Shown one piece after another: positions 18,743 through 19,713 of a stretch of DNA of 64,000 nt (position 1 is its first letter; the number at the start of each line of letters is the position of its first letter). The stretch spans positions 699,595-763,594 of the forward strand of contig MOEB01000001.1 in the NCBI GenBank assembly GCA_001939945.1. The letters run 5' to 3'. The DNA is from Aerophototrophica crusticola (GTDB lineage: Bacteria > Pseudomonadota > Alphaproteobacteria > Azospirillales > Azospirillaceae). A program made the position numbers and the translations under genes. Below the pieces are notes generated by a model that searched no databases, was not told where the DNA came from, and saw only the letters and a list, made by a program, of their open reading frames with translations.

Positions 18743-19102
18743 TCAACGTCCCGCGGATGCCGCAGCGCCGCCCACGAGGCGGGGCTGCTTGTTGAAGTTC
18801 ATGGTGATCATCAGGGTGACCTTGCCCCGGATCAGGTAGACCATCTTGTCCGCCTCCACCGGCAAGGGCACGTTCTTGGCCATGCAATAGGCCAGCAGGG
18901 CGCCCTGCACCTCATGCTCCGCCAGCGCCAGGGTACGCTTGCCGCCGTCCAGCTCCAGGTTGACCTTCAGCCCGTCACCCATCTCGGTGTTCAGGCCGGT
19001 GATCTCCCCCTCCGGCATCGGCTCCTTCAACTTGCGGCGACGGTCCAGGATGGCTGCCAACAGCTCGTTGTCCGAGAAGACGATGCAGCGCAGTTCCTTC
19101 AT
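18743..19102 (-). CDS. Conserved hypothetical protein downstream of the FNR-box region
   Basis: 119 residues from ATG at 19102, which has GGGAG eight bases upstream; an in-frame ATG ten codons earlier is possible. Sequence starts MKELRCIVFSDNELLAAILD and includes KLKEPMPEGEITGL, an EHEVQGALLAYCMAKNVPLP helix and a C-terminal GKVTLMITMNF strand. I do not recognise the fold; it has no signal or membrane segment. Its upstream region is unusual: an intrinsic terminator at 19186-19219, an FNR-like box at 19281-19294 and a 49-codon open frame whose TGA overlaps this ATG. Expression may be set by attenuation. Confidence 0.7.
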   Translation of the reverse strand: MKELRCIVFSDNELLAAILDRRRKLKEPMPEGEITGLNTEMGDGLKVNLELDGGKRTLALAEHEVQGALLAYCMAKNVPLPVEADKMVYLIRGKVTLMITMNFNKQPRLVGGAAASAGR

Positions 19103-19185
19103 CCCATAGGCTCCCACCAACGATAGGAGCATGCTAGCCCTTCGCCGTCTGCCACGCCAGGAACCCTGACCTTAGGGATAGGGAC

Positions 19186-19219
19186 AAAAAAATTCCGGGG
19201 CTCATTTCTGGGCCCCGGA
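19186..19219 (-). terminator. Intrinsic terminator with seven-T tail
   Basis: Minus-strand stem TCCGGGGC/GCCCCGGA (8 bp) with a ten-base loop, followed by AA and seven T. It is 90 bases after the hisI stop, so it can end the hisI transcript, but it could equally end a short RNA started at about 19248. Confidence 0.85.
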
Positions 19220-19248
19220 GCAGTGGTATAGGGAGGGTTTAGAGACAT
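19186..19248 (-). ncRNA. Candidate small RNA or attenuated leader, about 63 nt
   Basis: Between a predicted start near 19248 and the intrinsic terminator lies a 63-base segment with a single-stranded CCCUCCCU element, resembling an anti-Shine-Dalgarno seed, and a U-rich 3' end of the kind bound by Hfq. An FNR-like box is centred about 40 bases upstream of the predicted start and a TCTACA -10 lies at 19255-19260. No expression evidence; the same signals could be a leader for the gene at 18743-19102. Confidence 0.35.
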
Positions 19249-19254
19249 CCTCCT

Positions 19255-19294
19255 TGTAGATGCCTTTCCCTCAAGCCGCTTTGACTTGGATCAA
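19255..19294 (-). promoter_or_regulatory. FNR/FixK-like box and -10 element
   Basis: Minus strand TTGATCCAAGTCAA (19294-19281) matches the TTGAT-N4-ATCAA consensus at nine of ten positions. TCTACA at 19260-19255 sits where a -10 would be if the box were at about -40, the usual class II position for FNR-type activators. The box is 15 bases past the hisI stop codon. Confidence 0.5.
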
Positions 19295-19308: not shown

Positions 19309-19713
19309 TCAAAAACCGCTGCCGTAAAGCTCGGTCGGCGGGATCGCGACCTCGGCGATGGTGACCAGTTCCCCGTCGCGGGCGGCCCGGTAGAAGCAGT
19401 TCCGCCGCCCGGTGTGGCAAGCGACGCCCTTTTGGTCCACCAGCAGCAGCAAGGTGTCGCCGTCGCAGTCCAGCCGAAGCTCCACCAGCGTCTGCACCTG
19501 GCCGGAGGACTCGCCCTTGCGCCAGGGACCGCCGCGGGAGCGGGACCAGTAGCAGACCCGGCCTGTCTCCAGCGTCTCGACCACGGCGTCCCGGTTCATC
19601 CAGGCCATCATCAGCACCTCACCCGTGCCGTGCTGCTGGGCGATGGCGGGGACCAGCCCGTCGGCGTTGAAACGGATGGCCTCCAGCAGGCCGGGGTGCA
19701 CTCGGGTGCTCAT
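19309..19713 (-). CDS. hisI: Phosphoribosyl-AMP cyclohydrolase
   Basis: 134 residues, a full-length stand-alone HisI catalysing the third step of histidine synthesis. Zinc and magnesium ligand motifs are present: RSRGGPWRKGESSGQ, DCDGDTLLLLVDQ and ACHTGRRNCFYR. No HisE domain is fused. The ATG overlaps the stop of the metC-like gene by four bases (ATGA), placing hisI last in a sulfur-metabolism-like run rather than with other his genes. Confidence 0.95.
   Translation of the reverse strand: MSTRVHPGLLEAIRFNADGLVPAIAQQHGTGEVLMMAWMNRDAVVETLETGRVCYWSRSRGGPWRKGESSGQVQTLVELRLDCDGDTLLLLVDQKGVACHTGRRNCFYRAARDGELVTIAEVAIPPTELYGSGF

Follow-up and report, generated by a model that had tools for sequence, protein, structure and literature searches.

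A putative FNR-controlled small RNA family with an exposed anti-Shine–Dalgarno-like element, found mostly behind hisI in Azospirillaceae

The short interval that follows hisI on the minus strand of a 64,000-nucleotide stretch of the Aerophototrophica crusticola genome (the window) raises the question of what is transcribed from it: a free-standing small RNA, the attenuated leader of the gene downstream, or simply the tail of the hisI operon. Reading away from hisI, an FNR/FixK-type box (TTGATCCAAGTCAA) starts 14 nt past the gene and is followed by the hexamer TCTACA, the segment GTCTCTAAACCCTCCCTATACCACT and a GC hairpin with a run of seven T residues ending at 19186 (Table 1). The initial annotation had described the nine-of-ten box, the -10 element and the eight-pair stem with its T run, and all of these are present in the DNA. 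A generic promoter and terminator scan called neither the promoter nor the terminator of this unit, the former because it has no sigma70 -35 element, the latter because its loop exceeds the length that the scan allows. We consider it likely that the interval encodes an FNR-activated, stand-alone and trans-acting sRNA of about 61 nt that ends at its own terminator and, when oxygen is limiting, would repress mRNAs by acting on their ribosome-binding sites. hisI is a landmark for the sRNA gene and lies outside the mechanism.

Table 1. Features of the sRNA locus (positions in the window).
Feature	Position	Strand	Remarks
FNR/FixK-type box TTGATCCAAGTCAA	19281..19294	-	9/10 match to TTGAT-N4-ATCAA; centre at -41.5 of the predicted start
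-10 element TCTACA	19255..19260	-	T-A-rich -10 at the equivalent place in 111 copies
sRNA gene	19186..19246	-	predicted transcript of ~61 nt, GUCUCUAAACCCUCCCUAUACCACUGCUCCGGGGCCCAGAAAUGAGCCCCGGAAUUUUUUU
Exposed anti-Shine–Dalgarno-like element ACCCUCCCUA	19229..19238	-	unpaired in the fold; invariant in the four closest copies
Intrinsic terminator hairpin and U run	19186..19219	-	8-pair GC stem 19219-19194, then T7 to 19186
hisI (PRA-CH)	19309..19713	-	conserved upstream neighbour of the sRNA gene

FNR boxes with at most one mismatch occur 64 times in the 6.06-Mb host genome (about one per 95 kb) compared with eight for the reversed pattern; a single box on its own is therefore not rare. A gapped pattern, in which the box is followed after 25–50 nt by CCCTCCCT, is far more selective: it matches the host genome once, at the window copy, and its reversed form is found nowhere in the 82 Azospirillaceae genomes scanned. 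Among the 111 distinct copies that were collected, the distance from the box centre to the G of GTCTC is 40.5 nt in one, 41.5 nt in 45, 42.5 nt in 44 and 43.5 nt in 21, so that 110 copies fall between 41.5 and 43.5 nt, with an A/T-rich -10 element where it is expected. Box and GTCTC were both required by the search pattern, but the spacing was free over a 15-nt range, which makes its narrow distribution informative. A box centred near -41.5 occupies the class II activator position of FNR- and CRP-dependent promoters, and the TTGAT-N4-ATCAA-type box of the window copy stands at just this distance from the putative start. The predicted +1 at about G19246 follows from this class II geometry, together with the point at which conservation begins, and the 3′ end is placed by the T run. 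A start at about 19248 and an RNA of 63 nt had been proposed initially; the short RNA stands, and the start is more likely to lie 1–2 nt further downstream, giving a length of about 61–62 nt.

The transcript predicted in this way and its promoter are conserved as a unit, in which the FNR box, an unpaired 5′ segment (GUCUCUAACCCUCCCUGU), a covarying terminator and a U-run recur throughout the family. The RNA of the window folds with a z-score of -3.7 into a single predicted terminator hairpin, and in a comparison of four copies each forms one terminator hairpin with its 5′ half open (z from -3.7 to -6.2); the 5′ segment is unpaired in most folds. The alignment of the four sequences shows no change in most of the box, in TGTCTCT or in ACCCTCCCTAT-CCACT, and variation in the promoter spacer and the stem. 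Across 16 diverse copies, 90.9% of the cells in the terminator helix are paired and ten of its eleven pairs are changed on both sides; none of 500 shuffles was as good, and slid controls reached at most 57%. GC hairpin, U-run and covariation, the marks of an intrinsically terminated sRNA, are thus found together. A covariance model of the family (R1) also detects copies outside its training set, at 53 bits in genome G012 and 45 bits in G019; the window copy belongs to the training set, and its own 59.6 bits are not independent. Both G012 and G019 have an FNR box, the same 5′ segment 33–34 nt later and then an unrelated GC hairpin. Box and stem are retained in relatives, where the initial annotation had suggested looking for them, and the anti-Shine–Dalgarno-like element CCCUCCCU, which it had taken to be exposed in a short terminated RNA, is indeed unpaired in the fold and conserved in relatives.

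A 49-aa frame (19248-19099, minus strand) runs through the hairpin, and its TGA overlaps, as had been noted, the ATG at 19102 of the next gene (an ATGA overlap). Homologues of that gene (18743-19102, minus strand) mostly begin Met-Lys-Glu-Leu, which makes 19102 its likely start. Its product belongs to a family of about 119 aa that starts MKELRC, has about five paralogues in the host genome and occurs in 61 of the 99 genomes searched; no Pfam or NCBIfam model matches it. The arrangement could be that of an attenuated leader, in which the promoter serves the downstream gene, the hairpin is a conditional terminator and the frame couples translation. The overlap of the frame with the ATG speaks for this, as does the presence of the gene behind the sRNA in three genomes, but the gene follows just 3 of the 111 copies and is absent from G007, where box and RNA persist after hisI. 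Congeners with both hisI and the downstream gene have no box between them, and most homologues of the gene in relatives have no similar sequence upstream. The frame itself is not conserved: the triplet in the register of the ATG is ATG in one copy and something else in the other 110 (mostly TTG, CTG or no start), the length ranges from 7 to more than 100 codons, and most copies have one nucleotide fewer ahead of CCCTCCC, so that their reading frame is shifted. With a predicted +1 at about G19246, moreover, the frame's ATG (19248-19246) lies at or outside the 5′ end of the transcript, and the folds contain one hairpin and no alternative antiterminator. An unconserved frame and a rarely linked gene leave attenuation and translational coupling, both raised by the initial annotation, unsupported, and we regard the leader as very improbable.

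Nor does the stem appear to be only the terminator of hisI, with the box present by chance and devoid of promoter function. The stem does lie about 90–115 nt past the hisI stop codon in the same orientation, and hisI is found directly upstream (within 700 bp) of 77 of the 111 copies; the sRNA stem may indeed serve additionally as a hisI terminator. It is the box, the spacing and the 5′ RNA segment that are conserved, though, whereas the sequence of the stem changes; each tandem copy has a box of its own; about 30 of the 111 copies are away from hisI or have too little flank; and the reversed-pattern control is empty. Termination of hisI as the sole function, which had been offered as the fallback reading, is therefore rejected as extremely improbable in favour of an independent sRNA gene.

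The gapped pattern is found in 57 of the 82 Azospirillaceae genomes, or 58 if CCTTCC seeds are allowed, with one to four copies per genome. Most Azospirillum (genus g12) have two to four, many of them in tandem about 130–250 bp apart. Named carriers include many Azospirillum species, Skermanella (S. stibiiresistens and S. aerolata) and Roseomonas genomospecies 6 ATCC 49961, and several Azospirillaceae or Rhodospirillales metagenome bins can be added to them. Convincing boxed copies are also present outside the Azospirillaceae, in L071, L072 and L185 (family f16), L081 (f96) and L182 and L183 (f87); since the copies in L081, L182 and L183 directly follow hisI as well, the hisI locus looks like the ancestral position of the sRNA. 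Within the genus of the window the distribution is patchy, as two of eleven genomes carry the sRNA (the host genome and G007); the pattern is unmatched in nine of the ten other members of this genus and in all of genus g2, though FnrL is present there.

Four proteins encoded in the host genome match the Crp family. One (L276) is FnrL/FNR-like, with a CxxC-x7-C motif and a central Cys, and a second FNR/FixK-like regulator (L277) is similar to it and has the Cys motifs. Their scores against the NCBIfam FnrL model, 204 and 131 bits, are below its cut-off of 300, and for this reason both are called FNR/FixK-type rather than FnrL proper; a regulator of this type is in any case encoded by the genome. 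If any protein that scores 300 bits or more against the L276 protein is counted as an FnrL orthologue, such an orthologue is present in 57 of 58 genomes with the sRNA versus 18 of 24 without it (Fisher p 0.002, kinship ignored). In genus g6, G036 alone has both the sRNA and the orthologue and the four other genomes have neither, and the single Azospirillum of 45 that has no sRNA (G118) has no FnrL orthologue either; in G019 the sRNA is present and no orthologue was found at this threshold. From promoter position and co-occurrence we infer that FNR very probably activates transcription of the sRNA at low oxygen. An FNR box also lies upstream of the host genome's own FnrL-like gene (L276 581-594), making autoregulation of that gene possible.

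In the mechanism that we propose, oxygen limitation would lead an FnrL/FNR-type protein to bind the box at -41.5 and to activate transcription from about G19246, and transcription would stop at the GC hairpin and U-run to yield the RNA of about 61 nt. Target mRNAs would then be bound at their G-rich ribosome-binding sites through base pairing with the unpaired 5′ half of this RNA (GUCUCU..ACCCUCCCU), probably while Hfq occupies its 3′ U-run, and would be translated less. An anti-Shine–Dalgarno action is proposed because SisA, an alphaR8 RNA of Caulobacter that acts together with Hfq, represses mRNAs by pairing its CCUCCCU motif ahead of their start codons (PMC12559287). The comparative evidence bears directly on the conserved unit, its promoter geometry, its structure and its co-occurrence with a regulator; the start site, oxygen dependence, activation by FNR, the role of Hfq, anti-Shine–Dalgarno pairing and the action on target mRNAs are what we infer.

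Candidate targets were sought as genes with AGGGAGGGTT shortly before the start codon (AGGGAGGGTT-N-ATG). In Azospirillum the pattern recurs at genes for a YccF-like membrane protein (N-terminus MPLLSLLLNLLWLVTG), a DppC-like ABC permease (MASVPAGHG), an AMP-binding enzyme (MHGDDW) and a DmsC-like anchor (MHPAFSIIFF), all named by eye from their sequences, and predicted duplexes between the sRNA and the first three of these reach about -21 to -28 kcal/mol. Within the window's genus, genomes devoid of the sRNA carry the same AGGGAGGGTT motif before another conserved gene (MSDKLTTQDVQRLLTD), and the composition of Shine–Dalgarno sequences therefore explains much of the pattern, so that no target is claimed. 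Many alphaproteobacterial sRNAs contain CCUCCC motifs, and the motif alone thus does not specify which mRNAs are hit. The RNA might also act on a protein or on other sRNAs, as a sponge, instead of on ribosome-binding sites; CrfA of Caulobacter is a sponge of anti-Shine–Dalgarno sRNAs (PMC12559287), but the present RNA carries the anti-Shine–Dalgarno sequence itself and not its complement, and we judge such an action improbable. A stretch conserved in about ten Azospirillum genomes (AGGGAGGGTTTGAATGTCACGG; around position 1500 of L249, L252, L253, L259 and L274) has complementarity to the seed of the sRNA (about -22 kcal/mol) and only a 7-codon frame after its ATG; it could be a 5′ UTR, a sponge or a chance occurrence.

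Azospirillum and its relatives are microaerophilic, nitrogen-fixing associates of plants in which the control of oxygen is central. No FNR-controlled sRNA is described for them in the searchable papers, and no relevant paper in the searchable literature contains the core sequence or the combination of hisI, sRNA and FNR; the family is apparently undescribed there and in Rfam 15. The main text of an sRNA survey of A. brasilense Sp245 mentions neither FNR nor oxygen, and an unnamed sRNA of that survey, which has its sequence list in the supplement, may be the present RNA (PMC7685610). We would give an even chance to a broader proposal, namely that in Azospirillaceae and some neighbouring families this multi-copy family is dedicated to carrying the FNR response to the post-transcriptional level. 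It would be equivalent in function to FnrS and would either descend from the alphaR8 design or have converged with it; its tandem siblings, all under FNR and sharing one anti-Shine–Dalgarno seed, would shut down aerobic or uptake functions as oxygen falls. A conserved family that is easy to recognise and has a fixed promoter offers a model for post-transcriptional oxygen control in Alphaproteobacteria and could be considered for inclusion in Rfam, and its one to four siblings per genome are a natural set for asking why anti-Shine–Dalgarno sRNAs multiply.

When compared with known RNAs, none of the tested sRNA copies reaches the cut-off of any family in Rfam 15. The best meaningful match is that of the G007 copy to suhB/MmgR (RF00519), at 21.5 bits with a gathering cut-off of 41; the window copy is absent from the RF00519 matches at an E-value of 5, and five other sRNA loci give no suhB match. 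The alphaR8/suhB RNAs of this family (MmgR of Sinorhizobium meliloti, SisA-D of Caulobacter) are likewise short (about 75 nt), alphaproteobacterial and multi-copy and expose CCUCCCU before the terminator. They have a 5′ GCCC..GGGC hairpin and UUUCCUCCCUAGACUU, whereas in the new RNA the hairpin before CCUCCCU is missing and the unpaired 5′ half starts GUCUC; the promoters of SisA-D share no motif, unlike those of the new family, which all carry an FNR box. A divergent alphaR8 RNA, deprived of its 5′ hairpin and brought under the control of FNR, would account for the unpaired CCUCCCU, the ACU(U) just before the terminator and the U-run common to both, for the alignment of the G007 copy to RF00519 and for the one RF00519 member (L198) that R1 matches. 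Such an origin is nonetheless unlikely, in view of a score far below the cut-off, the five loci devoid of suhB similarity, 15 RF00519-derived loci that R1 does not match even at an E-value of 1, and the coexistence of both kinds of RNA in the same genomes. alphaR8/suhB RNAs are themselves greatly multiplied in Azospirillaceae, with about 10–19 RF00519 matches per genome at E<=1 in many and several above the cut-off; the window's own genome has at least four among the matches listed.

CcsR1-4 (RF02791) and SorX (RF02784) are also alphaproteobacterial and have C-rich CCUCC motifs, but their promoters and structures differ from those of the new RNA, which matches neither in the Rfam scans. The window copy matches ncS16 of Burkholderia (RF02866) weakly, mostly through the terminator, at 20.9 bits (below the cut-off of 48), and ncS16 is beta-proteobacterial. 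A second conserved alphaproteobacterial RNA end was also seen, consisting of ACGTCTCCCAGACGTGAAGCCTCCCTGTTCAACT and a GC terminator (L193 1501-1558, minus strand; also L197, L208-L210, L212, L213, L189, L194, L199 and L202). It carries the motif CCUCCCUGU, has a TGCTGC/GCAGCA palindrome upstream in several cases, matches SorX weakly (25–27 bits, cut-off 46.6) and is present also in genomes that have no FNR sRNA.

With respect to control by oxygen, the new RNA is about half as long as FnrS of Escherichia coli (about 120 nt), has a different pairing region, often occurs in tandem copies and gives no FnrS match in the Rfam scans. The control logic proposed for the new RNA is the same, as FnrS is an sRNA under FNR control at low oxygen that represses many mRNAs dispensable without oxygen (PMC8139620). 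PcrZ of Rhodobacter sphaeroides, to which the new RNA has no Rfam match, is likewise an alphaproteobacterial sRNA linked to low oxygen and FnrL, being induced at low oxygen in dependence on PrrA and FnrL (PMC8139620); it differs in that a PrrA site is present at its promoter and FnrL may act there indirectly.
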